DNA from: Galerina marginata | Lineage: Eukaryota; Basidiomycota; Agaricomycetes; Agaricales; Galerinaceae | Reading direction: 5' to 3' | Length of the DNA: 64,000 nucleotides | Assembly: GCA_023014335.1 (NCBI GenBank) | Contig: JAECYW010000028.1 | Location: forward strand, 124,001-188,000 | Part shown: positions 1-62,408 of the stretch, piece after piece | Numbering within the stretch: the first letter of the stretch is position 1 | How the letters are laid out: every line of letters begins with the position of its first letter | The notes under the pieces: generated by a model | Databases searched by the model: none | Told to the model about the DNA's origin: nothing | Seen by the model: the letters and a program-made list of their open reading frames with translations, nothing else | Made by a program: the position numbers and the translations under genes

Positions 1-173
1 TCAAGAAAAGAATCTTGTACTTGCTGTTTATGCATAGATAATTAATTATATTAATATAATGGGTGGGTGGTTGGGATAATAATACTTTATATATCTAAAT
101 AATTAAATATGTACATTAAGCAGAAAAAAGGACGAATACATGCCATGCGAAGCAATGGCCCACTACACCAAGT
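1..173 (+). mobile_element. 3' end of an HPE-B-like element
   Basis: Only the right end is in the window. It shows AAAAGGACGAATACATGCC followed by the small hairpin GCCATGCGAAGCAATGGC (138-160 region) and a tail ending ACCAAGT at 173. The LINE-1 5' UTR starts directly at 174. The subterminal box GGACGAAT is a variant of the GGACTCAT box of the other HPE-B copies, so this may be a further subfamily. The first 100 bases are AT-rich and show nothing else. Confidence 0.6.
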
Positions 174-250
174 AACTTGTTCATCACGCAACAACCACTC
201 GTCCGATCTTATCGAAACTTGGTACACCGCTTCACCGCACACTATCGATC

Positions 251-2131
251 ATGCCTCCCAAGCCTGGGGACGAGCGCCCGCAAAGCGCCTGCGATACGGG
301 CCAGACAAGTCGAAACACCCCCCCGGTCTTTACTGCATCTCCTGCAGTTGGATCTTCTGGTTCTGCTGCACCTTCTGCAGCCAGAGCTCGCTATACCCCC
401 GATGTCCCTGCCCAGGAACGTCGGGGACCTTCCAGGCCGTCCTCTAGGGCGTCCAGTTCAACGGTTCAGCCCTCTGCGCACGGACCACCCCCCTCTGATT
501 CGGAGATGGCTGACTTTGAGCCCTCCTCAGACGATCAGGATGGCGATGAAGCAGTCACTGAAGGGAGTGTAACTGTGTCATCCATTGCTGTCACCATCGA
601 GCGCGCCACCAAGGCTCTCCTTAGGGGGAGACCTAGTGTTGATGCTTCTCTTGCCGGGTCTCGACGACTCGCTTCCGGGGTTGTTGATTTTATCACAGCC
701 CTCAACAATGCTGGGTGGATAGATGTTTCCACCGGCGCCCCCCATAGATTCGTCGGATTATCCGAAGCAATCCTCCCTTTCTTTCAGCTTCCCCGGGGAA
801 TGGACGTCGACGACCAGACGATCCGTCACCCTGTTGCAGCTGGCTCATCCGCCCCAGCCCTCTTCCCTCCGGAGAGGTCTGGACCCCCCGACGTTCCCCC
901 TCCTCCCGATAGGAAAGGCAAGGGGAACGCCGACCTTCCGAAAGGAGGTTGGAAACCAGTCCAACCGCAACCGCGGCCTGCAAAGGCCAAGGAGGTGGTT
1001 CCTTTTCAGAGGCCTCCCCCGCCGATTCCTCTACACTCCAAGCCCGGCAGGGCGTAGAAACCCGCTTGCGCGGGCTATGCAGCTGCCGCGGCTAAGCCTG
1101 CTGCTTCGGCGGCTGGTCCCTCCAAAAGGCCACTTACGCCTTCTGTCCCCCAGGGCAATCCCGCTCCTGCTAAGAAGCAGAAGAGGGAGACCCCTCTCTT
1201 CACATCGTCGGGTCCCTCGCGCAAGCAGGTTCTCGTTGACTTCGCCTTGCCCTCACCCCCCGCGGCTGAGGGCGATCGTCTTCTGGACATCATCACGAGG
1301 TCCTTATCCACCCATGGAGGCAGCGTCAAGGCTGAATCCGTCTCTCAGGCTTATCGAGGCTACTTGATTGCCACCTCCGGTGTTCCTCGCGAAAAGGATA
1401 TCGATATCATTCGCGGGTGCGTTCACGATTTCTTCCCAGATGATATCAGCGATAAAATCTGGGTTGGCCTCCCGGCCTTGAAGTCTTACCTTCGAGTGCT
1501 TGATGTCCCCACGTACCAGCCCAACCAGGCCGGTCCTACCCATCCAGATCATATAAGGCAGGCGATGTATAAGTCTGCCCTCACTGATCTCCTTCACCTC
1601 GACGGCCCCGTTAGGCTCGTCCGCAACACCAAGACCAGTACTACTAGTACTGCGTACTTCAACATCTGGGATTCCAAGACGGGATCTCGTGCCCGGGTGC
1701 TCATTGGGCGTTCTTTCATGCTCGGTCCGCACACCTTGATTATCAAGGAGTCCAACCGCAAGGCCGGCGTCCCCCAGTGTCAGCGCTGCTGGCGTTGGGG
1801 CCATGCCATCGCGGCGTGCAAGGCTTTGTCCTTGCGCTGCCCTATCTGTTCAGGTCCCCACCTGGAGGAACATCACCAAGACCATGCGGCTTGCTGCAAG
1901 GGCTCCACCAAGAGCAACCCGCCCATCCCTGCCACGCCAGCGGGTGAGCCGTGCCCACACCACCACCGCTGCTCCAACTGCAAGAAGGAGCACTCCGCCA
2001 CCTCGAACAAGTGTCGGTTCTGGGGCCTCCGCTTCGATCGCCCGGCGATTGACGCTCTCTATGCGCAGGTATGTGAACGCGTTGTCGTTCGTCGTCCAGC
2101 TTCCTCCTCTAACCCGTCGTCCCTAGCTTGA
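251..2131 (+). pseudogene. LINE-1 ORF1 (nucleic-acid-binding protein) with one nonsense codon
   Basis: Begins MPPKPGDERPQS and reads in one frame to a TGA at 2129-2131, 626 codons, except for a TAG at 1055-1057 where LINE-4 has CAG (a C-to-T change, as expected of RIP-like or deamination decay, though a single case proves nothing). The N-terminal half is Pro/Ser/Ala-rich and probably disordered. The C-terminal third holds zinc knuckles: CQRCWRWGHAIAAC then CPICSGPH...CC and CSNCKKEHSATSNKC, roughly residues 508-595. In LINEs such ORF1 proteins coat the element RNA and accompany it into the nucleus. The stop overlaps the ORF2 start as TGATG, suggesting termination-reinitiation. Confidence 0.85.
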
Positions 2132-4958: not shown

Positions 4959-5345
4959 ACTTGGTCAGAGGCCATTGCTGCGCATGGCAAAAACAAGTTC
5001 TTACTTTGTGGGTGCATGTTACGAAATAATTATATGTTAAATAAGTAAATAATGCATAGTCCGCTCAAATCTGAACCGATTGGGATGATCTTATACTCAA
5101 AAAAAGCAGAAAAATGAGACGGATCTAACAAGCCTAAAATCAACTGGTCACGTGACCAGGAAGGCCCTGATTTTTACGAATTTCTTGATACCAAGATCAT
5201 CAAAATTGGCCCAGTAATGGCTGAGATACAGAAACCATGCAGGGTCACTATAGCAGTGGGAGAATTTCCAACCATTGCGTTAGAAACCATTTCTGCCTGC
5301 TATGCAGGCCGGAAAACAAGTTCTTTTACTACGTAAGAACTTGTA
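4959..5345 (-). mobile_element. HPE-A, short form, bridging a 1.5-kb LINE deletion
   Basis: Minus orientation: ACTTGGTCAGAGGCC with the 3' hairpin at the left, and ACTACGTAAGAACTTGTA (5' hairpin) at the right. The left flank is the LINE at GTACACTC, just past YVDD; the right flank is AAGGGTGGGCC, near the end of RNase H. In every intact LINE copy these points are about 1.5 kb apart. A clean insertion does not explain this; recombination between two HPE-A copies in one LINE does. Confidence 0.85.
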
Positions 5346-7574: not shown

Positions 7575-7701
7575 ACTTGTTAAGAGGCCATTGCTCTGCA
7601 TGGCAAATACGAGTTCTTTTTCTTCTTAATTCTCTTTATCAAAGATTTTTCAATATATTATTGGGTTGTATATCAAAGATAGATTTTATCATATTTTTAC
7701 C

Positions 7702-8460
7702 TGCATAGAGTAGCAGTACATGGCAAAAACAAGTCCTCATGTACTATGTCTCAGTAATTGATTAATAACAAAGTGAGATGTTATCTGATTGGACTAGTGT
7801 TTTGAAGTCTGGTCTAGTCTGGTTTTTTCGCATTTTTGGCAAGGACTAGGACTGTAACTGGTTCTAGAAATTTATAAATGTTCAAAAAACTGGACTGGAC
7901 TGATAACAACCGGTCCTCATCAGTTTTTTTGCAGTCCTGGACCAGTCTTGGTCTTAACCGGTTGCCAGCCAGTCTCAACTGGTTTTTTGATACATTAACA
8001 TCAAAATTTAGTGTAGATATATGAATATAATTTGTAAAGATCATATATACCTTTAAAACAAGTCTAAGAACATTAAATTCTGTTGAGAATTGCCAATTAT
8101 ACAGAAATATTCACCATTTCCTACTCTTGTGGGAGTTTCAAAATGGTTTGTTTTATTTTTCAGCATGATGAACTTTGTCTAAAATTATGATACATAGTGC
8201 ATTTTAAAGGGAAAAATAAGGGCTACAAAACTACTGGTTTGGACTGGTCCTAGGACCAAAAACTGGTCCTCAAAGATTGGTCTTTTTCTGGTTTTTCATT
8301 CTCAAATATCAAAAGACCAGACTGCTGGTCCAGTATTTTTGCAGTTTGGTCCAGTCTTTTTGCAGTCTTTTCCAGTCTTAGGACCGGACTTCAAAACACT
8401 AGATTGGGCTGATCCTGAACTCATTGGAAAGGTAATAAAAAGATGCATTTTATGGTATAA
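7702..8460 (-). mobile_element. Partial HPE-C nested in HPE-D
   Basis: CATGGCAAAAACAAGTCC near 7719 and the following stretch match the HPE-C at 27686-28435 on both sides of the hAT MITE: ATTAATAACA...TTATCTGATTGG before it and CATTGGAAAGGTAATAAAA after it. The far end is not recognisable, so the right limit is approximate. Confidence 0.55.
7795..8401. mobile_element. hAT-like MITE, 607 bp
   Basis: Terminal inverted repeats TAGTGTTTTGAAGTC at 7795 and its complement ending at 8401. Flanked by GATTGGAC (7787-7794) and GATTGGGC (8402-8409), an 8-bp duplication with one mismatch. TAG-type ends plus 8-bp duplications fit hAT. No coding capacity; the interior is full of CTGGTCC/GGACCAG units. Confidence 0.75.
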
Positions 8461-8562
8461 ACCAGAAAATCACTAGTTTAGCTTGTACACAGTACTTATG
8501 CTTGCTATGCATTTGTAAAAGTAGTCTAAAGATATAAAGCTAGTAAGTTATTGCTTTATATC

Positions 8563-8965
8563 AAGTTTTAATCCACACAGAAAGCAAAAAAAAAGGATAA
8601 AAAAGCGCCAGCAAAGCACTTTTCTAGCCCACACACAGTCAACTGATATGACCTGTGCTAGAAAAGAAAGCTATCTACAAATAAAAGTGCCCTAAAAACA
8701 TATATCTAGCTATATACTACTGTCTATCAAGTTTTACTCTACACAAAAAGGTAAAAAAGAGGTAAAAAAGCGCCAGCAATGCACTCTTCCAGCCTCATAA
8801 TCTATACTAGGGAAAAAAGCTATCTACTAATATAAGTACATTAAAGACTCATATTTAGCTAGTTAGTATTGAGTCTATTAAGTTTTAAACTACATAAAAG
8901 GCACAGAAAAAAAGGGGGAAAAGTGCCAGCAAAGCACCTTTCTGCTTTATACAAACTTATAATGA
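8563..8965. repeat. Degenerate tandem repeat, three units of about 155 bp
   Basis: Units begin with AAGTTTTA, pass through an A-rich tract and reach GCGCCAGCAAAGCAC at about 8605, 8769 and 8921 (third unit GTGCCAGCAAAGCAC). The HPE-D at 32884-35526 keeps a single unit near 33412, so the tandem state differs between copies. Confidence 0.65.
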
Positions 8966-9001
8966 ATCTAAAAAGAAAGAGACAACAGTTAGTAAGCTTT
9001 G

Positions 9002-9072
9002 ACCAGCATGTCATGGTATCCCCTCAGCGAGGGGTACACTATCGGCCTATCCGGGTGGACTAACATGCTGGT
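9002..9072 (+). other. Candidate folded RNA/DNA motif in HPE-D (copy 1)
   Basis: ACCAGCATG at 9002-9010 pairs with CATGCTGGT at 9064-9072. Inside, CCCCTC-AGC-GAGGGG forms a second stem. The homologous place at 33496-33566 keeps both stems, with CCTCTC/GAGAGG inside, i.e. one C-G pair replaced by T-A. CCTATCCGGG is kept in the loop side. I do not recognise a known RNA family. Confidence 0.4.
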
Positions 9073-9151
9073 AAAGAAGAAAGAAAGAAGTGATGAGCTG
9101 GTAGTTTATAACTATGTGACATATGTTACAAGTCACACAAATTTATCTAAT

Positions 9152-9196
9152 CCAATAAGATAAGATAAGATAAGATAAGATAAGATAAGATAAAAA
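9152..9196 (+). repeat. Microsatellite (ATAAG)n
   Basis: Eight or so units of ATAAG after CCAATAAG, ending in ATAAAAAGATA. It is absent from the 33.5-kb HPE-D copy. Confidence 0.85.
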
Positions 9197-9456
9197 GATA
9201 ACTCTGGTATTGTATATACTGATTGTATATAGTTGATTTTCAGGATTCTCCATACTTAATTGATAATTGATCTAATAAGCAATAAAACATCCAATATTTT
9301 GAGAATTGTGGTAGTAGTGACTGAGACAAACTTCTATCAGATTTGCTGTGGCTACATAGAGTACTATTATTACAAAGCCTTGAATTTTATAATTTTTGTA
9401 TGAATTGACTAAGTACTAACATTTTAAATGTAAATTTAGAGATTTTTTTTTTTTGG

Positions 9457-9500
9457 GTGGCTGTGCAGAGTACCTATGCGTCGGTGCTCTGCACAGCCAC
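9457..9500. repeat. 44-bp imperfect palindrome (GTGGCTGTGC type)
   Basis: GTGGCTGTGCAGAGTACC on the left faces GTGCTCTGCACAGCCAC on the right; two or so centre positions mismatch. A relative of the perfect palindrome at 10224-10267. Confidence 0.75.
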
Positions 9501-10223
9501 AGAAAATATTGTTTTCAGTGTCTCTCAACCATCACTGCCTCAATTCTTATGAAAATAATATTAAAAAAATTGCAAAATTCAGGCCTTTCCAATGGTATTT
9601 TGCACAGCCACAGAATATACCAGCTAGCCACAATCAAACAACAACAAAATATTTTATTCAATCTATTAAGCTGAGTTTTTCATGGATTCCTTTAAAATAA
9701 AATGTATAATTAGTAGAAAATTCAGGGCTATCAAATAGTAAACTATTAGCAAAGGTCATATGACTTTAAAATTGCCAAATTTTGATATTTTCAAATTTCA
9801 GTTATTTAAATTGAAGGAAATTGATGATTTGACTGTGCTGAACATCTTGATGTGTTAGCATACCCATACAAATAATGATCTCATGGTTTAATATTATCCA
9901 AATTATTGGTTTTTCAATGTAATTGACTTCTATTTCCATTACTTAAACCAAGTTTATCACATTTAAAGGATGTGGGAAATAATTTTAAACTCAGGAACAG
10001 CAAAGATTTATTCCTTACATAATCTAGTCCCTCCACCTTCACTAAAGCTGAGGAGCCCCCAAAAAAGGCTATATTGATTAAAAAGATATAGATGTAACAG
10101 TGATATAATATTAGATAAGAAAAAGTGATTGATGACTAAAATATATAGGAAACACATGCATAGCTACCTAAAGAAACAACCAGCATAACTTGCTTTTAAA
10201 AGCATTTTAGAATTTTGTGATTT

Positions 10224-10267
10224 GTGGCTGTGCAGAGTACCGACGCGTCGGTACTCTGCACAGCCAC
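10224..10267. repeat. 44-bp perfect palindrome (GTGGCTGTGC type)
   Basis: GTGGCTGTGCAGAGTACCGA continues into its exact reverse complement with centre CGACGCGTCG. No mismatch over 22 base pairs. Confidence 0.9.
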
Positions 10268-11306
10268 AATAAAAACCGCAGATTTTTATTTAAAAGGCAT
10301 TTTAGAAGTTTTAAAGCTTTATATGTACATAATGTTAGACTTTCAAAATAAAGTGTGTTACTAGTGATTTACACTAATAAGAGCACAATAAGCTTAGTTT
10401 ACACAAGGGATTACATGTTGGTACATATGTGATTATCTTACAGAGTGAGATATGACCATAGTTGTTCACAATATTGTGTTTGAAATAATTGTGATACAGA
10501 ACTCCAAATTACTGTTAATAAGAAGATGACCAAACAGTAAAACTTTTTACATAATATCACTTTTATCTTCTGATTAAGAGTTGTAATGTTGTTGTTATAC
10601 ATATATGTTTTCATCCAATATAGCCTCTTGGGGGCCTCCCTGAGCTTTAGCATATCAAAAAGAAAGAGCTCAGTAAATAAAGTGTAAAATGCTCAGTTCT
10701 GTAGAATGTTCAAGCAAAGTAGAATTTTAAATTATTAGAAATATATTTCGAGAGTTGTAGCTGTGCAGATTCAAAGGTAGATTTTTAAGATATTATTGAA
10801 TTGAAAGCCTTTAGACTTTCAATCACATTTGTTTAGAGAGGAACATATAGAGAAATATAGAGGAAAAGTTAAACAAGTCCTACAAATAGTATTATTTATT
10901 ACTTGGATGTAGTGGAAGTGATATAGAAGTATGTAAATAGATATACAATCAACGTAAATAGGGTTTCATCATATAAGCTATATATAAACCATAGCAACCA
11001 GAGTAAGAGCATGTAACTGACTGCAAAGTCAAAGAAATGATATTTGATCACGTTACTGGCAAGACCTAACCTTAGTTTAGGTGTCTAGGAACCAAAGCTA
11101 AAAATAGACCCTAGCAACGGACATCAGACAACCATTCCCATGGTCAATAATAATTTTGAAACTATTAGAAAAGTTTGTAGACTTTTAATTCAGGGTTGGT
11201 CACAAAAAGTGAAGCAGTGGGAGAATTTCCATCATTTTTGTTAGGAACCATTTGCTTCTGCTATCGAGTGTAGAAAACGAGTTCTTTTACTACGTAAGAA
11301 CTCGTA

Positions 11307-16089: not shown

Positions 16090-18234
16090 TACAAGTTCTT
16101 ACGTAGTAAAAGAACTTGTTTTCCGGCCTGCATAGCAGGCAGAAATGGTTCCTAACAAAACCAATGGAAATTCTCCCACTGCTATAGTGACCCTGCATGG
16201 TTTCTGTATCTCAGCCATTACTGGGCCAATTTCTATGATCTTGGTATCAAAAAAATCGTAAAAATCAGGGCTTTCATGTGGCATGTGTATCCAGGGTCGA
16301 TTAGGTCATGTGACCTGCTCACACAACCCAAAAAGCGCAAATTTGTGTGAATTTACACTCAAAACAGATTTCAGTGAGCTAGATATGCTAAAATGTGTTG
16401 CCCAGACAAATCTAGAATAGTGTACAAATATTTACATATGTTTTGCAATGATGTCATGGTGTCCAAATCAGGCAAACAGTCAGCTCAACTTGGTGAAAAT
16501 CCGAAAATTGGTGTTAAACTGACTGGATAACCCATAAAAGGCACACCAAACATTGCAAAACATGACCAAATAACATGAAAATAATGCTTTAGAAGCTTAC
16601 ATAATCAAACTCACAGCAGGACTTTGTGCAAATCCCTTGAAATCAGTTGAGGCACCAAGTTAGACCAAAATATTCTCAGGGCTATGTCATGTGATATGTG
16701 TGCACAGACCATCCCTTAGGTAAAAAAAACATCATCTGTATTTTTATTTTATTTTAATGCCTTTAAATCTCCCAAAATAGTGTATTTCAAACAATATTCC
16801 GCATTTGGTAAGTCACATCAAAATGTGACAATACCTATGTGTCACCATCTTTTAGCCCTGATTTTTCTGATAATTACACACTTTGTTTCAAGGCAATCTG
16901 ATAAAAACTAAGCAACGTATGAATTAATCTTTTTACAAGTTCTTATTGTAGTCTAATAATTAATCTTGTTACAAGTTCTTACGTAGTAAAAGAACTTGTT
17001 TTCCGGCCTGCATAGCAGGCAGAAATGGTTCCTAACAAAACCAATGGAAATTCTCCCACTGCTATAGTGACCCTGCATGGTTTCTGTATCTCAGCCATTA
17101 CTGGGCCAATTTCTATGATCTTGGTATCAAAAAAATCGTAAAAATCAGGGCTTTCATGTGGCATGTGTATCCAGGGTCAATTAGGTCATGTGACCTGCTC
17201 ACACAACCCAAAAAGCGCAAATTTGTGTGAATTTACACTCAAAACAGATTTCAGTGAGCTAGATATGCTAAAATGTGTTGCCCAGACAAATCTAGAATAG
17301 TGTACAAATATTTACATATGTTTTGCAATGATGTCATGGTGTCCAAATCAGGCAAACAGTCAGCTCAACTTGGTGAAAATCCGAAAATTGGTGTTAAACT
17401 GACTGGATAACCCATAAAAGGCACACCAAACATTGCAAAACATGACCAAATAACATGAAAATAATGCTTTAGAAGCTTACATAATCAAACTCACAGCAGG
17501 ACTTTGTGCAAATCCCTTGAAATCAGTTGAGGCACCAAGTTAGACCAAAATATTCTCAGGGCTATGTCATGTGATATGTGTGCACAGACCATCCCTTAGG
17601 TAAAAAAAACATCATCTGTATTTTTATTTTATTTTAATGCCTTTAAATCTCCCAAAATAGTGTATTTCAAACAATATTCCGCATTTGGTAAGTCACATCA
17701 AAATGTGACAATACCTATGTGTCACCATCTTTTAGCCCTGATTTTTCTGATAATTACACACTTTGTTTCAAGGCAATCTGATAAAAACTAAGCAACGTAT
17801 GAATTAATCTTTTTACAAGTTCTTATTGTAGTCTAATAATTAATCTTGTTACAAGTTCTTACGTAGTAAAAGAACTTGTTTTCCGGCCTGCATAGCAGGC
17901 AGAAATGGTTCCTAACAAAACCAATGGAAATTCTCCCACTGCTATAGTGACCCTGCATGGTTTCTGTATCTCAGCCATTACTGGGCCAATTTCTATGATC
18001 TTGGTATCAAAAAAATCGTAAAAATCAGGGCCTTCCTGGTCACGTGACCAGGCCGTTTTAGGCTTGTTAGATCCCCCTCATTTTTCTGCTTTTTTTGAGT
18101 ATAAGATCATCCCAATAGCTTTACATTTGAGCGGACTATGTATTATTTACTTATTTAACCTTTATTTATAGTCGCACTCACCTTGAAAGTAAGAACTTGT
18201 TTTTGCCATGCGCAGCAATGGCCTCTGACCAAGT
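16090..18234 (+). mobile_element. HPE-A head-to-tail array 1 (880 + 880 + 385 bp)
   Basis: Unit starts (TACAAGTTCTTACGTAG) lie at 16090, 16970 and 17850. Units 1 and 2 are practically identical over 880 bp, including each internal change. Only unit 3 has the HPE-A 3' end (GTAAGAACTTGTTTTTGCC, small hairpin, ACCAAGT at 18234). Each long unit has a decayed second start, TTTTACAAGTTCTTATTG, about 35 bp before the next unit. Such arrays are expected of rolling-circle replication that reads past its end. Confidence 0.9.
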
Positions 18235-24771: not shown

Positions 24772-25144
24772 CGTCATCCACAAGCCATTTCTCTAATCCA
24801 CCCTTTCCCGCTCCCCGACGTGCGCGCAAACGCCTGATATGGATAGAACAATATTATCCCATCCAAAATCAGTTTTTATCCCGCCCGAATCCGCCCAGCA
24901 CAACGAGCAGGACCAAAAATACGGCTTTCGGGCATCTCGGAGCGTCATTCGCAATGTTTACATGTATTTACAGTAAGCCGCCCAAAAGTGCGACCGTCAA
25001 ACACCTCCCCGGCACACCCGGCACATAGAGAAGAACATTTGGTTGCTTGTGGATAACTACCCAAGCTCACAGCTGAGGGGTTGGATATATCACCCATGGT
25101 GGGTAGGTACCCATATATGATATATAAGGTCAGTATCTACAGGT
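24772..25144 (-). repeat. Right terminal inverted repeat of the KDZ element
   Basis: Reverse complement of 12579-12952: begins (minus strand) CCTGTAGATACTGACC, then GGGTACCTACCCACC and the shared GC-rich block to GGATGACG. Beyond it at 25145-25182 are the remaining HPE-A 3' hairpin and tail, so the element lies inside that HPE-A. Confidence 0.8.
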
Positions 25145-25182
25145 GTGTTTTTGCCATGCGCAGCAATGGCCTCTGACCAAGT

Positions 25183-31342: not shown

Positions 31343-31375
<33 letters not shown>

Positions 31376-33566: not shown

Positions 33567-33657
33567 AAAGAAGAAAGAAAGAAGCGATGAGCTGGCAGTT
33601 TATGACAGTGTGAAATGTGTCATGTGATTTTGTTTTTTTTAGGGTTAAGGTTCCAAT

Positions 33658-36364: not shown

Positions 36365-36968
36365 TATGAGTCCTTTGATTTATCAAAGACTCATTCTTTA
36401 TAAACCCAGAACTTAGTTGAAAATTTCATTAATTGATTGATCATTCAACACCGCGGAAAAAAATTTCCCAAAAAGGAAAATTTTGACCAAATGATTGATT
36501 TAGGTCTTTTGACCAGAAATCTGAAAAAATCATGTGACTAGCTATTCCTGTTCCAGAGATATTGACCTTTTAACTCCAAAAATCACAAAAGTGCCAGCTT
36601 TTTTCAAGTTTTTTGCATTTTTCTCAATAAGGAAAGCAGCTAATCATATGTTTTTTAACAGATTCAGGGTCCTCAAATCATTTCCCACAGCTTTGTTTTT
36701 TTTCTCCTGAAATGGGAATTGCCAAATTCAGTAGCTTGTTCCCACCCTATATAACAAGTTGAACTTTGAAACTTCTTTCTTTTTTTCCTCCATCACAAAT
36801 GCAGCTATTGACTTAGTTCTTCTTGATATGTTCTCTGACTACTCTCTACTATTATTTAGGATACTTTTCCAGCTTCCAAGGTGTTTGGTTGTGCTATTAA
36901 CTTTTGACCTTTTGAAATTGAAAAGGACTCATATATGCCATGCGAAGCAATGGCCCACACCCACAAGT
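36365..36968 (+). mobile_element. HPE-B, 604 bp, immediately followed by HPE-A
   Basis: 5' hairpin TATGAGTCCTTTGATTTATC then AAAGACTCATTC; 3' end AAAAGGACTCATATATGCC, hairpin GCCATGCGAAGCAATGGC, tail CACCCACAAGT. The next base begins HPE-A (TACAAGTTC). Together they occupy one LINE-4 site, GGGGAAGT|GAGATCTG, which is intact in LINE-1 near 2970. Confidence 0.9.
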
Positions 36969-37375
36969 TACAAGTTCTTACGTAGTAAAAGAACTTGTTT
37001 TCCGGCCTGCATAGCAGGCAGAAATGGTTTCTAACGCAATGGTTCGAAATTCTCCCACTCATACTGTGACCCTGCATGGTTTCTGTATCTCAGCCATTAC
37101 TGAGCCAATTTTTATGATCTTGGTATCAAAAAATTCGTAAAAATCAGGGCCTTCCTGGTCACGTAACCAGGCCGTTTTAGGCTTGTTAGAACCGCCTCAT
37201 TTTTCTGCTTTTTTTGAGTATAAGATCATCCCAATCGGTTCAGATTTGAGCGCACTACATATTATTTACGTATTTAATATGTATTTATTTAATAACAGTG
37301 TAAGTCTTCAGGCACTGCCTCACACCAAAGTAAGAACTTGTTTTTGCCATGTGCAGCAATGGCCTCTGACCAAGT
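36969..37375 (+). mobile_element. HPE-A, short form, abutting HPE-B
   Basis: 5' hairpin at 36969, GCCTGCATAGCAGGC hairpin, interior, 3' end ACCAAGT at 37375. The 3' hairpin has GTGCAGC instead of GCGCAGC. It shares the exact boundary with the preceding HPE-B, so one inserted at the end of the other. Confidence 0.9.
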
Positions 37376-41221: not shown

Positions 41222-42507
41222 TACAAGTTCTTACGTAGTAAAAGAACTTGTTTTCCGGCCTGCATAGCAGGCAGAAAACATTCCTAATGCCAAGGACAGA
41301 AATACTCCCACTCATATAGTGACCCTGCATGGTTTCTGTATCTCAGCCATTACTGGGCCAAATTTAATGATTTTGGTATCAAAAAAATCGTAAAAATCAG
41401 GGCTTTCATGTGGCATGTGTATTCAGGGATGATTAGGTCATGTGACTTGTTCACACGACCCAAAAAGGGCAAATTGGTGTGAATTTACACTTAAAGCAGA
41501 TTTCAGTGAGCTAGATATGCTAAAATATGTTGCCCAGACCAATCTAGAATGATGTACAAATATTTACATATGTTTTGCAATGATGTCATGGTGTCCAAAT
41601 CAGGCAAACAGTCAGCTCAACTTGGTGAAAATCTGAAAATTGGTGTTAAACTGACTGGATAACCCATAAAAGTCACACCAAACATTGCAAAACATGACCA
41701 AATAACATGGAAATAATGTTCTAGAAGCTTACATAATCAAACTCACAGCAGGACTTTGTGCAATTGCCTTGGATTTGGTAATGCACCAACTTGGACCAAA
41801 ATATTCTCAGGGATATGTCATATGATAGGTGTGCACAGACCACCTGTTAGGTAAGAAAACGTTATCACCATTTTTTATTTTATTTTAATGCCTTTAAAAT
41901 CTCTCAATATAGCTTATTTACTGTGTTTTCAACAATATTCCGCATTTGGTAAGTCACAAAAGGTGTGACAATACGCATGTAACACCATCTTTTAGCCCTG
42001 ATTTTTCTGATAATTACACACTTTATTTTAAGGCAATCTGATAAAAACTAAGCGACGTATAAATTAATCTTGTTACAAGTTTCTTATTGTAGTCTAATAA
42101 TTAATCTTGTTACAAGTTCTTACGTAGTAAAAGAACTTGTTTTCCGGCCTGCATAGCAGGCAGAAAACATTCCTAACGCAATGGTTCGAAATTCTCCCAC
42201 TCATACAGTGACCCTGCATGGTTTCTGTATCTTAGCCATTACTGGGCCAATTTTGATGATCTTGGTATCAAAAAAATCGTAAAAATCAGGGCTTTCCTGC
42301 TCACGTGACTAGTTGATCTTAGGCTTGCTAGAATTGCCTCATTTTTCTGCTTTTTTTGAGTATAAGATCATCCCAATAGCTTCAGATTTGAGCGGACTAC
42401 ATATTATTTACTTATTTAACATGTATTTATCTAACACTCTTGGTATGTCTCCATCCCCAAAGTAAGAACTTGTTTTTGCCATGCGCAGCAATGGCCTCTA
42501 ACCAAGT
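41222..42507 (+). mobile_element. HPE-A, two-unit form (889 + 397 bp), precise insertion in LINE-4 ORF1
   Basis: Unit starts at 41222 and 42111; 3' end AACCAAGT at 42507. LINE-4 reads CCTGCGCAT|AGAGAGCGTC across it, exactly as LINE-1 near 2060 in complement. No target duplication. Confidence 0.9.
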
Positions 42508-44908: not shown

Positions 44909-45315
44909 TACAAGTTCTTACGTAGTAAAAGAACTTGTTTTCCGGCCTGCATAGCAGGCAGAAATGGTTTCTAACGCAATGGTTGGAAATTCTCCCACTG
45001 CTATAGTGACCCTGCATGGTTTCTGTATCTCAGCCATTACTGGGCCAATTTTTATGATCTTGGTATCAAAAAAATCGTAAAAATCAGGGCCTTCCTGGTC
45101 ACGTGACCAGGCCGTTTTAGGCTTGTTAGATTCGCCTTATTTTTCTGCTTTTTTTGAGTATAAGATCATCCCAATCGGTTCAGATTTGAGCGGACTACAT
45201 GTTATTTATGTATTTAATATGTATTTGTTTAATAACAGTGTAAGTCTTCAGGCACTGCCTCACCCCAAAGTAAGAACTTGTTTTTGCCATGCGCAGCAAT
45301 GGCCTCTGACCAAGT
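44909..45315 (+). mobile_element. HPE-A, 407 bp, type example with empty site
   Basis: TACAAGTTCTTACGTAGTAA plus AAGAACTTGT forms a 10-bp stem at the 5' end; then GCCTGC-ATA-GCAGGC; interior with CCTGGTCACGTGACCAGG; 3' end GTAAGAACTTGTTTTTGCC, GCCATGCGCAGCAATGGC, tail CTCTGACCAAGT. LINE-5 reads CCCCCGGT|CCTGGTGTAG across it; LINE-4 at 31600-31625 shows the uninterrupted site in complement. No duplication of the target other than possibly one T. Confidence 0.95.
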
Positions 45316-46623: not shown

Positions 46624-47283
46624 GGCGTTCCATGCGGGCTCGCTGCTCAGAGAGGCCTTGATACCTTCTTCCGGGTTGCGTCGGTTGGGGGAGGTCCAAT
46701 CCCTCCTTCAGACGAGGTTGACAGGCCGAGGACGGGGTGGTGCAGTTCCGCGCGTTCTTCGTGTTTTGTACCCAGTTGCATTCACTACGACCGGTGGTTA
46801 CTTTGCGGCCCATATCTCGAATGGTTGCTGCTTTTTTGGCTTGCGCAGATGGTTCTCATATGCGATCATTCGGTTGGGGGCCTTATCCCCGCATCTGCTT
46901 ATTTCTTTCGCTGGTATGGGTTTTCTGGTCGTCAAGGCGCGGGTGGGCAAAGGTTTTCGGGTTGGGTCCGGGTTCTGAAGTGGGCATCGGGTTTGGAAGG
47001 CGGAGAGAGTGCAGCAGCTGCGGCTGCCAGGAGATGTGCGGGCGGGCTTCGGCTCGTTCAAACGTGGTATTGGCGTAGCGGTGGGGGCGTCCCTTCCTCG
47101 CGGGACTGGGCGGTTAGGTGGTCCGTCCCCCTTAGCAAAGGCCTGGCGCACAAAGGACGCCGTTGGAAGGATTCGGAAGAAGCAGAGGGGTTCGGGTTCG
47201 GTTTGGGGACTAGTAGTTTACTGCGTGCTTTCGACCGGGGATTTGTATTAGTTAGGTGACCGGACTGCTTTCGCGCACCGGTT

Positions 47284-49546
47284 ACGAGTTCTTACGTTAG
47301 TAAAAGAACTCGTTCTTATTCTGACTTTCCGCTAATTTGCTTGCAGTGCGACCTCATTTCTCGTTGATTTTCTCTCACGGCTTCACTTTTTTTGTAGTCT
47401 TTGTTCCTAGTTACTACAAATGTTTGTAGTCTTTTAATTCAAAAAATGAAGTCGTGAGAACACATTTGATGACAACTTTGATTGATTGGTGATGCATCAT
47501 TTTCCCTAGTAACCATCTGTTGCACGTTGCCAATGTGATTGATTCCCAAAATAATACATCATTCAATTGCCCAACTGCTAAACCTTCTTAATAAAAACTG
47601 ATCCCATTAATTTTCCAAGTAATATCTTTTTTTTTTCAGGAAAATTGGTGCAGAATAGCATAAAATACATCAATCCTCAGTATTGATTGCTTAAGGTAAC
47701 ACATTCTAAATTTAGCTTGATTGATTGATGGGATCAATGACATCACATTGTTATATTTATGACATCAGATCCATCACTTCCCTTGGTAACCAATGATGCA
47801 ATACTCTGATATGCCACCAATGACTCTCTCTTATAATGCCCATACGTCACCAAATAGTCCGATTCCCACAACAGACATTTAGTATGATTTATAGCCCTGA
47901 ATTTTCTGAAAATTCTACAATTTATTTCATCAGAATCCGTGAAGAATTGATAGAGATACACCTAAAATAAATACTTATGTGTATGAATATTGCACATTAA
48001 TGACATCACGATCCTTAATTGACTGATGACGCACGCCGAGGTCAAAAATGACTATAGTCGACCCATTTTTGACCTCATGATCGAATTATTAGGCTTTTAG
48101 CATGCAGATCTGATCTGCGGGGTGAGAATGTTATGTAATAAATCCGGAAAAAATATTAAAAAATAGCCTGAATTTTTCTGATTACAAATATATTAAAATC
48201 ATGTGACCAGGTAATTTCCTCATTGAGAAATGACTTTTGGACGTGAGTCTGCAAATCAGTAATCAGGCTCTAACATGCTCAGTTCTGACTCAAATTACAT
48301 AATTTTAATATCAGAAAATCCAGAAAATTCAGGGCAATAAAATAGGTGGATAACTATTTGCAAATATTTGGTTCTGTTTGTATTATTCAAGAAATAAGCA
48401 TTTTGCATCCAAGCGTGGGAAAGTTGTGGAAAGCAAAAAAAATTTGTAAAATAAGAGAAACTTTTTCTGAGTCCAAATATACTTATACCATGCAATTTGA
48501 TAACTAAATTGTCAAGCAAATGCCCAAGATAAGAGATTAAATATATTATAATATCATAGCTTCCTGGATTCTTGTTCAAATATCATGAATTTTGTATCAT
48601 AAAATTTGCAAAATTCTGGGTTATTTGCTGAGTTTATTTATGCTCACAAATATTGACAAATATTTGCACTATTCCTTAAATACTTCAATTTATTATTCAA
48701 ATGAATGATTTCATTACTAATTGTAAATGCTGAGGAATTGTGTCACTTTTTTTTGAGTCTTTAAATATTTTATGCTGTTTTTATTTAGTCTAAAAATTAT
48801 AATCAATAGCTGGGTATTTGATTTTTTTTTTTTTTTTTTTTTAAATCAACAATTTATATACCGGTGCGCGAAAGCAGTCCGGTCGTCTAACTAATACAAA
48901 CCCCCGGTCGAAAGCGCGCGATAAACTACTAATCCCGAACCGAACCCGAACCCCTCCGCTTCCCCCGAATCCTTCCAACGGCGTCCTTTGTGCGCCAGGC
49001 CTTTGCTAGGGGGGACGGACTACCTAACCGCCCAGTCCCGCGAGGGAGGGACGGCCCCCACTGCTACGCCAATACCACGTTTGAACGAGCCGAAGCCCGC
49101 CCGCACATCTCCTGGCAGCCGCAGCTGCTGCACTCTCTCCGCCTTCCAAACCCGACGTCCACTTCAGAACCCAGACCCGACCCGAAAACCTTCACCCACC
49201 CGCGCCTTGACGACCCGAAACCCATACCAGCCATATTGAAAGACAGATTGTGAGGTTAAGGCACCCAACCGATCGCGAGAACGAATGAACGAACCGCGAC
49301 CGCACAAGCCAAAAATGTCGCTAACGCTCGAGATGCGGGCGACTCTGTAACCACCGGTCGTAGCGAATGCAACCGGGTACAAGGAGTGAAGAACGCGCGG
49401 GCACGACGACCCCGTCCTTGGCCTGTCAACCTCTGCCGACTTGGGGATTGGACTTCCCTCGCCTGCAGCAACCCGAAGCGGGTATCAAGGCCTCTCAACA
49501 TAAAGAACTCGTATTTGCCATGCGCAGCAATGGCTGCTTCACAAGT
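47284..49546 (+). mobile_element. HPE-D variant with nested LINE-6
   Basis: 5' hairpin TACGAGTTCTTACGTTAGTA followed by AAAGAACTCGT; 3' end AAAGAACTCGTATTTGCC, hairpin, GCTTCACAAGT at 49546. LINE-6 lies at 48822-49495. The left flank is LINE-5 3' UTR but the right flank (TTATAATAACAAG) is not, so one side was exchanged. The interior 47462-48567 recurs inverted at 58640-59752. Confidence 0.75.
48822..49495 (-). mobile_element. LINE-6: 3' UTR-only copy of subfamily b
   Basis: T-tract of about 20 at 48822, then the 3' UTR in antisense, practically identical to LINE-7's 3' UTR. It is 5'-truncated at GGTATCAAGGCCTCT. No clear target duplication found. Confidence 0.85.
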
Positions 49547-51622
49547 TTATAATAACAAGACTAATCTGAAGAATCCGTCTGGTACAGGGAAAAGTACGCG
49601 TTCACGTAGAATGGACGCATCGACCCGAGGGCGAACACTAATGGGTTGTTGTTGGGGAAAATAGAAAATAGATAACAAAATCAAAGACTCTGCCTCTTGG
49701 GATCGCGGGGTACGTCACTGAGACGCGTACGGGACTTGATTACTTTAGACTCTTGAAAAACGGGATAACGCCACTCTGGGATGCGTATGACTCTCTTGGG
49801 GTTACCAAAACCCTACTTGACAGGAAGAAACTCTGCAATGTCTGGTGTAGTCTACAACTATCTGAGTTGCCTCTACCACAGTCCAGGTCTTAGACACGCG
49901 ACGCACTACCAAAGTATGGGTTACCGCGGCTAATCGGATGGCCACTGAAGCCTCTTCAAGTCAAATAGATGACAGGTGTAAGAGATCGTTGTTCAAGTCC
50001 TTAAGTCTTTCAAAATCAAGTACGTTCACTCTGATCACAAAAGGTGAAATTCCGTCTAAGACAAATAAATCTGTTTATTCAAAATTCCGCGAAGTCAAGT
50101 TAACACTTAGACTTGGGGGTGTGGGCCATTGCTGCGCATGGCATGTATGAGTCCTCTTCAATTTCAAATTAAAACATCTCTTACTTCAAGTACAATTTAA
50201 TTATGTAAAATAATATGAGAAAACCAGATGTCTTAGAGGCCAAGAGAGTGTTTTAGATAATAGATGAAAATAGCCAGAGGTCATAGCAAAAAAACCAAGT
50301 CAATAGCTTCATTGGTGATAGAGAAAAAGAAGCTTCAAAGTTCAACTTATTATATTAGATGGGAGAAAGTTACCCAATTTGGCAATTACTTTTTAGGAAA
50401 AAACAAACAAAGTTGTGGGAAATGATTTGAGGACCCTGCATCTGTTGAAATCATGTGATTAGCTGCCTTCCTTATTGAGAAAAATGCAAAAAAGTTGAAA
50501 AAACCTGGTGCTTTTGTGATTTTTGGACTTAAAAGGTCAATATCTCAGGAACAGGAATAGCTAGTCACATGATTTTTTCAGATTTCTGGTCAAGAGACCT
50601 AAATCAATTATTTGGTTAAAATTTTCCTTTTTGGGAAATTTTTTTCCGCGGTGTTGAATGATCAATCAATCAATCAATCAATCAAATTCTCAACTAAGTT
50701 CTGGGTTTATAAAGAATGAGTCTTTGATAAATCAAAGGACTCATAAAATCTCAAAGAGGTTCTGGCGAACGTTCAAGATATAATCTCGTGGGTGGTAAAT
50801 TGCTTGTCTTTTTCTACATACGCGTACAGCTTTTATACTACTGAGAATAATATTTACATGTGATACAATGAAGGACTCGGCCTTTTACAAACAGCTGAAC
50901 CGGATGCCAAGTTTCTTGTTTACTAAGCTTTTCTGTTTCTTGCATAAGCTATCTTTCTGGTTGGCACGGGTATGCGTCGATATTACTCCTTTGGTAAGAA
51001 CGTTCAGAGGTTCTTGCTGATACAAGACCGTAAAACGCATCCCGATGTGCCGGGTCTAGGCTCTATCTGTGTGTTGCGGAAGGTGCACCCATATGTTTCG
51101 ATGGACGGGCCCGCACGGTAATCTTATCTTATCTCAGTCTTCGGATGCGCACTGTTATTCGCGTCCGTTATTGTTCGCCCGAGATGTCTGTGGGACTCGA
51201 CTCGGCAATCCTTCCTTTTACAGTAAGGTCGAGACTCGAGAAGCCATCACGGTCAAGACCCGGCAGTTCCCATCACTTGTGTTCCGGGTTCGCGAGCTTG
51301 TTACTTGATTTGTCAGGTGGTGCCGCGTCGGCACCATAGTTGTGGGTCCTATTCTTCGGATATCTGTCCCTATTTGTTTAGACGCTAGAGACCTGTGCCT
51401 GTCAGTTAGGCGCACAGGTAGGCCCGCGTTCACAGTCCTCGCATTATTACCGCGCTTCGTATACGGACACGTACCTGTAATTAGAAGCACATAGTTTAAC
51501 TCGGACTTCGTCGCGTACAGTAGTTTCCTCTAGTCTTGGCTGGCTTACACTGATTGTCCGAGACTTAGACAATGAGCCACGCAAGATAAATCATTATTCT
51601 AAGTCCAATATTGGTATGAGGA
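49547..51622. other. Unassigned sequence around an HPE-B
   Basis: Moderate GC, many CG dinucleotides and no convincing frame (the longest are under 91 codons). Possibly remains of an LTR element or of host intergenic DNA; no LTR ends, primer-binding site or pol motifs were found. Confidence 0.3.
50111..50745 (-). mobile_element. HPE-B, 635 bp
   Basis: Minus orientation: ACTTGGGGGTGTGGGCC, GCCATTGCTGCGCATGGC, ATGTATGAGTCCTC at the left and GATAAATCAAAGGACTCATA at the right. Interior matches 36365-36968 (AGCTGCCTTCCTTATTGAG and others), plus a (AATC)n run near 50663. Flanks CAAGTTAACACTTAG and AAATCTCAAAG carry no duplication. Confidence 0.9.
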
Positions 51623-52919
51623 ACTTGGTCAGAGGCCATTGCTGCGCATGGCAAAAACAAGTTCTTACTTTCAAGGTGAGTCCGACTATAAATAAAGGTT
51701 AAATAAGTAAATAATGCATAGTCCGCTCAAATCTGAAGCTATTAGGATGATCTTATACTCAAAAAAAGCAGAAAAATGAGGCGATTCTAACAAGCCTAAA
51801 ACGGCGTGGTCACGTGACCATGACCTAATCGTCCCTGGATACACATGCCACATGAAAGCCCTTATTTTTACGAATTTTTTGATACCAAGATCATCAAAAT
51901 TGGCCTAGTAATGGCTGAGATACAGAAACCATGCAGGGTCACTATAGCAGTGGGAGAATTTCCATTGGTTTTGTTAGGAACCATTTCTGCCTGCTATGCA
52001 GGCCGGAAAACAAGTTCTTTTACTACGTAAGAACTTGTAACAAGATTAATTAATTGACTACAATAAGAACTTGTAACAAGATTAGTTCATACATCACTTA
52101 GTTTTTATCGGATTGCCTTGAAACAAAATGTGTAATTATCAGAAAAATCAGGGCTAAAGGATGGTGTCACATACGTATTGTTACACCTTGATGTGACTTA
52201 CCAAATGCGGAATATTGTTTGAAATACACTATATTGGGAGATTTAAAGGCATTAAAATAAAATAAAAATACAGATGATGTTTTTTTGACCTAAGGGATGG
52301 TCTGTGCACACATATCACATGACATATCCCTGAGAATATTTTGGTCTAACTTGGTGCCTCAACTGATTTCAAGGGATTTGCACAAAGTCCTGCTGTGAGT
52401 TTGATTATGTAAGCTTTCAAAACATTATTTTCATGTTATTTGGTCATGTTTTGCATTGTTTGGTGTGCCTTTTATGGGTTATCCAGTCAGTTTAACACTA
52501 ATTTTCGGATTTTCACCAAGTTGAGCTGACTATTTGCCTGATTTGGACACCATGACATCATTGCCAAACATATGTAAATATTTGTACATAATTCTAGATT
52601 GGTCTGGGCAACACATTTTAGCATATCTAGCTCACTGAAATCCATTTCAAGTGTAAATTTACACAAATTTGCGCTTCTTGGGTCATATGAGCAGGTCACA
52701 TGACCTAATCGTCCCTGGATACACATGCCACATGAAAGCCCTTATTTTTACGAATTTTTTGATACCAAGATCATCAAAATTGGCCTAGTAATGGCTGAGA
52801 TACAGAAACCATGCAGGGTCACTATAGCAGTGGGAGAATTTCCATTGGTTTTGTTAGGAACCATTTCTGCCTGCTATGCAGGCCGGAAAACAAGTTCTTT
52901 TACTACGTAAGAACTTGTA
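51623..52919 (-). mobile_element. HPE-A array, minus orientation (417 + 880 bp)
   Basis: 3' end ACTTGGTCAGAGG at 51623; 5' hairpins end at 52039 and 52919. The 880-bp unit matches those of array 1 with more differences, so this is an older array of the same structure: only the unit next to the 3' end carries that end. Confidence 0.9.
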
Positions 52920-54191: not shown

Positions 54192-55227
54192 TATCAGTTT
54201 CATCCAAATTACAAGTTCTTACGTAGTAAAAGAACTTGTTTTCCGGCCTGCATAGCAGGCAGAAATGGTTTCTAACGCAATGGTTTGAAATTCTCCCACT
54301 CATATAGTGACCCTGCACCAATTTCTGTATCTCAGCCATTACTGGGCCAATTTTTATGATCTTGGTATCAAAAAATTTGTAAAAATCAGGGCCTTCCTGG
54401 TCACGTAACCAGGCCGTTTTAGGCTTGTTAGAACCGCCTCATTTTTCTGCTTTTTTTGAGTATAAGATCATCCCAATAGCTTCAGATTTGAGCGGACTAT
54501 GCATTATTTACTTATTTAACCTTTATTTATAGTCAGACTCACCTAGAAAGTAAGAACTTGTTTTTGCCATGCACAGCAATGGCCTCTGACCAAGTCATCA
54601 TATGGCACTACACCTGCATGAGTATCTTTGTCGGTTTGGTCCAGTCCATGGTTGGTGGACGTTTCCATTTGAAAGGTTGATTGGCATGCTGGAACGGATA
54701 CCAACTAACTTTAAAATAGGTACATTTGTTGTTACTTCTATTTTCTTTTTGCTGAATGCTCAATTCCTCAAAGGGGAACTCGAACAGACAATGTCGGAGA
54801 GCTTTACCTGAGCTGCGAACCTTCGAGCATTTGTTCATAAAACAAATCAGTGCCCGCCTGCCATTCTCAACTGCCAATTGATTTTCAGTCGACTCATCGA
54901 CCCACGTGCTCACAATACCTTAACTTCAAACGTAATGAGTTTTGTGGCTGGTGACCAACCAGAAGTTGTTGTCTGGAACCCTATGGCTACCTCAAAAGTC
55001 CCCTTGAAGCTCCAATCGGCCCTAGGTCTATATGGTATCAACGAAAAAGTAGACAAAGCACACTTCCTGTCAAATATCACCATTTGTGGGTCACGCTATA
55101 TGACTTCTGCCAAGGGTTTTGGGAATTCATCCGTGTTGATGGGGCTGCCCTCTTCAGATGTGAAGGTTCCTGTGGTCATAGATTCAATCTTCAAAATCTG
55201 AGCTTTGACCGATACTGTGAAGATCCT

Positions 55228-58243: not shown

Positions 58244-58639
58244 ACTTGGTCAGAGGCCATTGCTGCGCATGGCAAAAACAAGTTCTTACTTTGGGGTGAG
58301 GCAGTGCCTGAAGACTTACACTGTTATTAAATAAATATATATTAAATACATAAATAATATGTAGTCCGCTCAAATCTGAACCGATTGGGATGTTCTTATA
58401 CTCAAAAAAAGCAGAAAAATGAGGCGGATCTAACAAGCCTAAAACAGCCTGGTGAAAGCCCTGATTTTTACGAATTTTTTGATACCAAGATCATCAAAAT
58501 TGGCCCAGTAATGGCTGAGATACAGAAACCATGCAGGGTCACTGTATGAGTGGGAGAATTTCAAACCATTGCGTTAGAAACCATTTCTGCCTGCTATGCA
58601 GGCCGGAAAACAAGTTCTTTTACTACGTAAGAACTTGTA
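58244..58639 (-). mobile_element. HPE-A, short form, at the edge of an inverted HPE-D segment
   Basis: ACTTGGTCAGAGG at 58244 to AAGAACTTGTA at 58639. The right flank is HPE-D interior (TCCAGGAAGC); the left flank is unrelated, so this is another junction at an HPE-A rather than a clean insertion. Confidence 0.85.
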
Positions 58640-60216: not shown

Positions 60217-61898
60217 TTACAGGACTCGATACTCGGGGATTTGGATTTTCGATATAGCCATTCTATCCCAGTCCGTAGGGACCGCGAAACGTTCACAGAT
60301 CAGACGGATTTCTTCAAAATTCTCGGGGGATGGTTTATATGCAGCATAACGATCGTTGAACGGGCAGAAAACTTTCGTCCACTCGGTTTGGCTGAGTGGC
60401 TTGGCTTTCTTCGAATCGATCCTGTCGGCGATATAATTGAAGAGAGCTTCGAGAGGAGGATTCCAGATGCCAGCCCAGTGATGGCAGCGTTCTTCGAGGA
60501 TCTCAGGAGGAGGATACATCCATCGCTCAGCGGATCCCTTGTCGCTTGGAACGTAACCCAGTAATATGTGTTTCTCAGCCTCCGACACTTCATCCCAATG
60601 GATCCCGAGGTACATAATTTGATCGGAGTCGTTAGCGCCTCGATAATGACGCATGACTTGAATGGAAGGCCCGTCCATGAGACGTTGTACGATTTCGGGA
60701 CCTCCATATCGACGGGCTACCCAACTGTAAGGACCCCCGAGCGCTAAAAAACCTGGGGCTTGAGGACGACCCAAAACGTCTGTGGTACTCGTTAAGTAAG
60801 CAGGAACGACAGCGGTTTCGGAATTGAAGGAAAATGGAGCCTCCACAAATCCAGTAGCGTAGTAATTCTTAGCTCCCGTTCGCTCCAGAGTAGTGATCCG
60901 TTTCGGGGTCCACTTGTCGAAGTGTCGAAGGGGGATCCCGATGCTGAAAGCCAAGCCGTGATTCAGCGCGTAAGTCAGAACATCCCTCATAGACCGCATG
61001 AAAGGATTCGTGTTTGCTACTAGTCGCATTCGGGCTTGATCATCCCATTCATGAATGACGAGGTGGCCATACCTCAAGAGGTTTGGGTTCCAATCATCCC
61101 GATCCGCGAATTGAGGAACACGTCCTGGGAAGGCAAGAATCTCCGATATGACCGTGAGGGCTCGACGAAAAGTTTCGGCAGGGCGCTCGGGAAGCGGACG
61201 AATCGGTGAGGTGATTCTAGGCATCGGGGACCTTGAACGTTCTCTCGGGAGTGACTGGGAGGCGGCAAGAGTTCTAGAACGACGGTTGACTATGGGACGA
61301 ATGTTGATTAAAGTCCCATTGTCATCGTCGATAAGCATATTCTGGCCTTCAACCTGTCGAGTGTCACTGGGATGGAGGTTGAGCTCTGTTTCTGCGCCAG
61401 CAGTCATTGACAGTCTATCGAGCAAAGATGGAGGCCCCTCTGGGATAGGTTCCTGCATATAGGCTTTGAATGGAGATCGCGAGTCCAACCTAGCAAGGAG
61501 GGAAAGGCCGGACAAGCCGGTTTGCAAAACTCCAGAATAGAATTGAAAACCCTTCCCGGGATAGGGGCAAAAATCCCTTTGAATCGTTCGCGCAGTCCTG
61601 AGAGATCGTCAAGATCATCGTTAGGAGTACTCCAGGTGGGCATGGGTAGAGCCGAATTGTCTTTGACCCTCCAACGCCAGAGAATGATTCAAGGATCGTC
61701 GTCCTCGGGCAAAGTCGCAGTGGTGAATCGATAAGTGTGAACCACAAGTTCCCTGAAAGTATCTGACAATTGGATAGGCCGAGCTCCCCAGTTTTCGAAG
61801 TATATCACCGCGATTTTCCTAATGTTGCGTATGGCGGTAACTTCACCTTCGTCGGGTCTCTCCAAAGGTTGGAAGTAGTCGTCGAAAGCTTCGGCCAT
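60217..61898 (-). pseudogene. Decayed agaricomycete-type hypothetical protein gene
   Basis: Minus strand. 61898-61692 reads MAEAFDDYFQPLERPDEGEV and WGARPIQLSDTFRELVVHTY, then TGA (61689-61691), and the same frame continues to 61600 (WSTPNDDLDDLSGLRERFKG). After a frame change near 61500 a 414-codon stretch from the ATG at 61458 runs to 60217: SMTAGAETELNLHPSDTRQV, ILAFPGRVPQFADRDDWNP, HEWDDQARMRLVANTNPFMR, FSIGIPLRHFDKWTPK, PGFLALGGPYSWVARRYGGP, GPSIQVMRHYRGANDSDQIM, HILLGYVPSDKGSAERWMYP. I recall this protein type as an expanded family of unknown function in Agaricales; no catalytic motif is evident. Read as one gene of about 540 codons with one stop and one frameshift. Confidence 0.6.
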
Positions 61899-61900
61899 GT

Positions 61901-62408
61901 TATGAGTCCTTTGATTTATCAAAGACTCATTCTTTATAATCCCAGAACTTAGTCAAAATTTTGATTCATTCATTCATCCATCAACACCGCGGGAAAAATT
62001 TTCCAAAAAGATCAACAGGCATCATTTACAGGTAAAACATGTCTCATCACTATTAAACATTAATTTTTTGCATTCAACCAATTTATAAAGATAGTATGTG
62101 GATTTGAAATATATATATGTTAAAAAAAAAATTCATTTTAAGTATACTTTGAGCATTAAAGTGTCAATTTTCATGATTCTGATATTAAAAAAATTTGAAA
62201 AATATGAGGCTTCAAAGTCCTAAATTTTGGAATTTTTTTGATATTACTTTTGTGAGATTTAACATAGTAATTATTAAAATGCAGTAATAAAAAAGAAATT
62301 AGTGTAACTGTGCAAAATACCATATGGCTGTTGACTTTACCATTGCAAAGACCCAAATTTTACAATTTTTTAACATCACTTCCATGAGAATTGACCCAGT
62401 AATGGTTG
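61901..62408 (+). mobile_element. HPE-B, 3'-truncated, 2 bp upstream of the decayed gene's ATG
   Basis: 5' hairpin TATGAGTCCTTTGATTTATC, AAAGACTCATTCTTTATAA and the HPE-B signature CAACACCGCGG. No 3' end is found; from about 62290 the sequence resembles HPE-D interior (CTGTGCAAAATACCATATGG, GAGAATTGACCCAGTAATGG). Right limit is approximate. Confidence 0.65.

Follow-up and report, generated by a model that had tools for sequence, protein, structure and literature searches.

Matched ends and a mismatched lineage among Helitron2-type rolling-circle elements in Galerina marginata

A 64,000-bp stretch of the Galerina marginata genome (the window: positions 124,001 to 188,000 of contig JAECYW010000028.1 in assembly GCA_023014335.1, given here as C21:124001-188000; 69.3 Mb in 43 contigs) contains repeats that begin with a terminal hairpin and carry, near the other end, the reverse complement of the hairpin's left arm. 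A reading made from the letters alone (the sequence-only reading) had sorted them into four subfamilies, A to D, whose arms differ between subfamilies and always match within an element, and had taken them for non-autonomous rolling-circle elements selected to keep their ends matched. This raises the question of what these repeats are, and whether their two ends have to match. The best explanation as a whole, to which we give a probability of about 0.94, is that they are non-autonomous and autonomous members of the Helitron2/Helentron group, moved by an HUH Rep-helicase with pairing of the arms. They are mostly short and gene-less rolling-circle members, and their interest rests on a mismatched lineage (E), on tandem arrays and on giant elements.

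The elements share one layout, consisting of a 5' start (T-A-arm) that folds into a hairpin, a body, and a 3' end made up, in order, of the second arm (arm'), a short spacer, a GCCATG..GCAATGGC hairpin and the tail CAAGT. In types A-D the 3' subterminal arm is the reverse complement of the left arm of the 5' hairpin, the arms being those first described, down to the CTTTT/AAAAG of the copy at 31638 (type B') against the CCTTT/AAAGG of that at 36365 (type B). With one representative taken for each type, agreement between the 5' left arm and the 3' arm is complete (11/11 positions) in A, B, B' and C and reaches 10/11 in D. The two halves of the 5' hairpin, compared without gaps, pair at 9-10/11 in the first four types and at 10/11 in D; in those four, the hairpin stem is less perfect than the agreement of its left arm with the 3' arm. 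In one B copy (L006) only the right arm is B'-like, the left and 3' arms being those of B, so that there the 3' arm follows the left arm. The proposed folding of the 5' end is supported by hairpin energies of -7.2 to -8.8 kcal/mol (DNA parameters). The core held to be shared by all subfamilies, GCCATGCNNAGCAATGGC, has 21 matches in the window at up to two mismatches against 0.04 expected, which dismisses a chance origin, and occurs exactly 661 times in the assembly, with 0 occurrences of the reversed control. Sorting of 3' ends by arm across the assembly gave 461 A, 92 D, 41 B/B' (26 GG, 14 AG and 1 AA), 14 E (13 of them exact) and 11 C ends; four of the C ends have a CATGT core and thus lie outside the 661, of which approximately 47, by subtraction, fall outside the A, B, B', C, D and E arm patterns.

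Element boundaries were defined by empty sites. A search with 51 joined flanks returned 17 spanning matches, one of which was a self-match and was dropped; the 16 usable empty sites place the boundaries at T^ and CAAGT|, with no target duplication. T is present at -1 in 52/52 unique non-array flanks, a tally made without requiring it, and C at -2 in none. The insertion of an A element exactly behind the CAAGT of a B element (36365-37375) indicates that an element end can serve as target. A likeness of the target to CAAGT through C at -5 was considered (33/51), but the count is 21/52 without array junctions, and no strong claim is made for it.

The machinery is found between the same ends. PF14214 has 120 matches in the genome, in two score classes. 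It is joined to PF20209 and PIF1 in three frames, which are 2,146-2,653 residues long and in two cases truncated at the locus edge, and to PIF1 in a partial E frame, the PF14214-PIF1 proteins being P0001, P0002, the B protein and the partial E protein; the autonomous copies share the element ends. The autonomous proteins contain TLHLHLLLW or TLHMHMLLW, which we take to be the HUH motif, and YVTDYVTK or YISDYVTK, presumably the YxxxYxxK motif with its two tyrosines, and their helicase part resembles solved helicases including Helraiser 7LCC. Autonomous copies with Rep and helicase between such ends, which the sequence-only reading had suggested looking for, were found for B and E. The B copies (C34:2405786-2414599 and C6:1838765-1829786) are ~8.8-9.0 kb long with matched ends, and the short B element of the window consists of the first ~580 bp and last ~60 bp of the former; among the E copies, nine measure 9.9-11.0 kb and two are longer. 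Three 3' ends combine an A arm with an autonomous-type core: C23:2199730(-) lies 4,965 bp and C10:426011(+) 6.7 kb from a Rep match, no listed PF14214 match lies within 20 kb upstream of C14:190748, and a 5' end was seen for none of the three. The shared ends, together with empty sites lacking duplication, bear out the assignment of the short repeats as non-autonomous rolling-circle elements. Pfam returned no endonuclease family at E <= 0.01 in the four proteins, three of which are cut at the locus edge; in the available part of a review, AP endonuclease is given for animal and certain fungal Helentrons (PMC6431247), and its presence is therefore no defining feature of Helitron2 at large. The last ~200 residues of P0001 and P0002 (NYSCSYDSL ... 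HF ... WYHDG), which have no Pfam match, resemble a Cys-His-Asp cysteine protease; Helitron-encoded deubiquitinases are known, according to the accessible text of PMC9741609.

Comparison with known systems draws on the portions available of each source. For Helitron2, a 5' hairpin formed from the 5' repeat, compensatory changes and the hypothesis of end pairing were published by Bao & Jurka (2013, PMC3627910), the support for the proposal there coming from compensatory changes in two elements related to each other. The present elements combine a Rep fused to a PIF1-type helicase, asymmetric inverted repeats, a 5' hairpin and insertion at T without duplication, as in Helitron2. Matched ends are thus a described hallmark of Helitron2/Helentron and not new here, and the 5' hairpin, which the sequence-only reading regarded as a departure from these elements, already belongs to the published definition (PMC3627910). 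Differences from that description are a 3' repeat ~35 bp from the end (20-30 stated there), insertion after a T not preceded by C (after TTTT there), the E-type mismatch and the very long D-type autonomous elements. FoHeli1 and FoHeli2 of Fusarium oxysporum (Chellapan et al. 2016, PMC5148889) likewise have hairpins at both ends, asymmetric inverted repeats and copies with multiple 5' termini, and amplicons with joined ends were reported for them; they differ in having other end sequences, an ATTTT end, insertion between TNAT and A, and a length of 5-6 kb. Helentron/HINE and DINE-1 elements (Thomas et al. 2014, PMC4067079), whose families are defined by 11 bp identical repeats, resemble ours in the palindromic subterminal inverted repeats of many families, the 3' palindrome and non-autonomous derivatives, some with tandem repeats, and differ in TT dinucleotide insertion, variable T runs and an endonuclease domain, of the kind for which Pfam gave no match here. 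Canonical Helitrons (Helitron1; Helraiser) share the Rep-helicase, 3' hairpin and lack of target duplication, but have 5'-TC and CTRR-3' ends, an AT target and no inverted repeats, in contrast to the TA...CAAGT ends and inverted repeats found here.

Whether the two arms covary was followed by pairing ends through position and strand only (81 B-type 5' hairpins against 55 B/B'/E 3' ends). A 5' partner was obtained for 37 of the 41 B/B' 3' ends, comprising 22 GG-CC, 14 AG-CT and 1 AA-CT combinations (left arms given second), and the four partnerless ends are all GG. There is no CC/CT crossing among the 37. When the five 3' arms of A, B, B', C and D were permuted over the five 5' arms, the true assignment was the sole best of 120, with duplex energies of -12.4 to -13.3 kcal/mol for matched arms versus -3.0 to -11.0 kcal/mol for crossed arms. 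Arm positions 3 and 7 take all four combinations over A, B, C and D, the far end changing to match, and B differs from B' at arm position 8, again with a matching far-end change. The claim that the ends vary together accordingly stands by subfamily and, for B/B', genome-wide; the further claim that they must match fails on the E lineage. Selection for matching, also proposed at the outset, is plausible, the evidence being a handful of subfamily-level changes; copy counts are no proof of it, because both ends are inherited together.

The E lineage, a fifth type represented in the window by a 3' end at 128-173, is where the arms do not match. Its 3' arm is AAAGGACGAAT, with expected partner ATTCGTCCTTT, and no E-type 5' hairpin was recovered in a search allowing up to three mismatches. 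By position, a B-type 5' end is the partner of 13 of the 14 E 3' ends, the remaining one being partnerless, and all 13 paired elements have the left arm ATGAGTCCTTT, which differs from the partner of the 3' arm at two positions in 11. A Rep match is enclosed in 11 of the 13. For the E element ending at window 173, an empty site fixes both ends exactly, and a second copy at C21:232588 is 99.97% identical across 9.2 kb. The two mismatches are an adjacent G.A and A.G, each in a pyrimidine-GA-purine context, and the model duplex energy weakens from -13.2 to -8.4 for the E arms. Tandem G.A pairs can be stable in DNA, and such pairing would soften the E exception.

Several points weigh against the explanation by arm pairing in a Helitron2/Helentron system. 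The E elements moved despite two arm mismatches, and perfect pairing is therefore not required; one unmatched base is present in 2/37 B/B' pairs (C14:42137, at left-arm position 9, and C23:2357854, the AA end); covariation was assessed within a single assembly; and the Helitron2 assignment was made by ends, target and Pfam domains. What was observed is anatomy, boundaries, ends common with Rep-helicase elements, arm matching and array homogeneity, from which the strand events, the circles and arm pairing as a selected step are read. The ends might instead match by shared descent only, each subfamily having arisen once from an inverted-repeat element, with no present selection. Subfamily copies do descend together, so that genome-wide counts add little independence, and the two-base mismatch of E has been kept through many insertions (13/13 paired elements), but we consider this account unlikely: the changes at positions 3 and 7 among A-D and at position 8 between B and B' are matched at both ends, matched duplexes are stronger than crossed ones, and no other of the 120 assignments is as good as the true one. 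Since repeated matched changes need constraint or gene conversion between the ends, shared descent alone would be insufficient.

A more credible alternative, though one we would back only tentatively, is that Rep binds the arm as duplex DNA at both ends, matching being the result of one protein variant binding both. This would yield the same pattern, and the identity of the E and B 5' arms looks as if the 5' end of E were still read by a B-like Rep; against it, E tolerates a 3' arm differing from the 5' arm at 2/11 positions, and nothing else separates it from arm pairing. By contrast, an origin as elements resembling miniature inverted-repeat transposable elements, as DDE elements with terminal inverted repeats, or as Cryptons, in each case with palindromic ends, deserves almost no credence: in its favor, the repeats are short, with many copies and inverted repeats, but the 16 empty sites without target duplication, the asymmetric position of the repeats and the Rep-helicase domains of the autonomous relatives led to its rejection.

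Under the favored explanation, transposition by a Helitron2-type Rep-helicase with arm pairing, an HUH (Y2) Rep-helicase supplied by autonomous relatives would nick the 5' boundary (host T | TA-arm), and one strand would be displaced, with termination at the 3' hairpin and CAAGT. Two partners would be open to the 5' left arm: its neighbor, giving the 5' hairpin, and the subterminal arm of the 3' end. The second pairing would bring together the cleavage sites and 3' hairpin at termination or at the circle junction; owing to it, the arms would drift as pairs. The circle would then insert after a T, without target duplication. An internal second 5' end may give rise to sub-circles and multimers, and hence to tandem arrays.

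The arrays consist of long units without a 3' end followed by one unit with a 3' end, with joints of ...CTTGT|TA. Long units measure 880, 854, 891 and 889 bp in A and 656 bp in B'; they are 99.9-100% identical within the three arrays that have at least two, and 85-95% identical between A arrays. Joined flanks were searched for six arrays, and for three of these an empty site was found that takes in the array from end to end. These features fit better with rolling-circle multimers, inserted in one piece or expanded soon after, than with repeated self-insertion.

The D type differs in scale. Its 92 3' ends fall into three groups: 52 have a D 5' partner 1.6-4.7 kb away, 26 are distinguished by the spacer TTTTTGCC and a GAAGC or AAAGC core, and the remaining 14 comprise 12 partnerless ends and two paired at 52-54 kb. 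A typed Rep match lies within 14 kb upstream of 22 of the 26. After removal of the 52 used D 5' ends, 17 of the 26 find an upstream same-strand D 5' end within 60 kb (at 21.7-57 kb), 12 of them at 30-42 kb, compared with 4, 6 and 8 within 60 kb and 1, 2 and 2 at 30-42 kb in three control placements; nine are partnerless, and diverged D 5' ends were missed because the search pattern was exact. Two copies in opposite orientation on C6 (C6:1792275-1825606 and C6:1884572-1851243) measure 33,332 and 33,330 bp from 5' T to CAAGT; their 3'-most 8.76 kb are identical, and the alignment stops at the 3' terminus. A piece located 9.6-13.1 kb from the 3' end (L049) recurs in several giant copies (95 matches, with 40 of 80 candidates scored), and in five of these its palindromic motif is found again, ~0.6-0.9 kb inward from the D 5' end. 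The palindrome, at ~75-129 of L049 (C6:1812575-1812629), has telomere-like CCTAACCCTAA ... TTAGGGTTAG ends. A plus-strand copy on C4 is interrupted near L049 2806|2807 by a ~41.5-kb minus-strand segment, whose right edge is exactly a D 5' end and whose left edge is a D 3' end within a few bases; the interrupted copy thus provides an empty site for a giant D element.

The D autonomous elements therefore seem to be giants, two copies being ~33.3 kb long as judged from ends and flanking pieces, with a middle of ~20 kb not read. We regard as fairly probable the combined proposal that giant autonomous Helitron2 elements of ~31-35 kb before nested inserts, with the Rep-helicase in the last ~8 kb, drive the D lineage and perhaps A as well, and that the E arms are able to pair via tandem G.A. 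For fungal Helitrons, 6-7 to 14 kb is given in the available part of PMC6431247, and up to 39 kb for maize; the D giants would exceed the 14-kb figure more than twofold. A literature search on giant helitrons returned no match.

The elements of the window are collected in Table 1. Within 24000-32500, several lie inside copies of other repeated coding-like sequence, and such copies supplied empty sites. Among the matches listed, cores are clustered in blocks (e.g. C1 333-582 kb and C6 1.66-1.94 Mb), exceptions being a second group on C4 and on C39. From the positions listed, blocks of ~150-450 kb, often one per contig and with nested elements, are present on C6, C10, C12, C14, C21, C23, C34, C40, C42 and C43; the clustering and nesting suggest centromeric or other heterochromatin. 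The second PF14214 class (L009-L027, ~150-210 bits) is mostly outside blocks, with L013, just right of the window, inside one, and perhaps represents canonical Helitrons that share this genome. An exact core match is also present in seven viral contigs; none of these has an arm alongside it, and they look unrelated to the elements. A protein scan of viral contigs found nothing.

Table 1. Elements and element ends in the window (window coordinates)
Feature	Position	Strand	Remarks
E-type autonomous Helitron2 element, 3' end	1..173	+	5' end C21:113526; 10,648 bp; Rep-helicase frame just left of window
A element	4959..5345	-	
D element, ~3.7 kb	7575..11306	-	
A array: two 880-bp units lacking the 3' end, followed by a unit that has it	16090..18234	+	
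A array: three 854-bp units, then one with 3' end	21264..24228	+	
Solitary 3' end: core and CAAGT tail, without 5' end, arm also lost	25139..25182	+	
A element	26535..26921	-	
C element	27686..28435	-	Interrupted by nested A element 27789-28173 (-)
A array: one 891-bp unit and terminal unit	28722..29981	+	
B' element (CTTTT/AAAAG)	31638..32027	+	
D element, 2,643 bp	32884..35526	+	
B element (CCTTT/AAAGG), internal-deletion derivative of B autonomous element	36365..36968	+	
A element directly after CAAGT of preceding B element	36969..37375	+	
A array: one 889-bp unit and terminal unit	41222..42507	+	Empty site spans entire array
A element, 407 bp	44909..45315	+	
D element, GTTAG loop variant	47283..49546	+	
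B element	50111..50745	-	
A array: one 880-bp unit and terminal unit	51623..52919	-	Empty site spans entire array
A element	54210..54595	+	
A element	58244..58639	-	
B-type 5' hairpin, no matching 3' end in window	61901..61930	+	

Matched ends of five types (A, B, B', C and D) thus coexist in one genome with a mismatched mobile type, E. The same genome provides autonomous partners for B, E and D, and for A as judged by the 3' arm, as well as numerous insertions for which an empty site exists. These elements form a natural set well suited to asking whether the arms at the two ends of a Helitron2 pair when it transposes, and the E lineage, whose arms might still pair, could make the rule directly testable. 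Should the giant D elements be confirmed over their full length, self-mobile rolling-circle elements would be known across a wider range of sizes, and what such giants carry would become a question.

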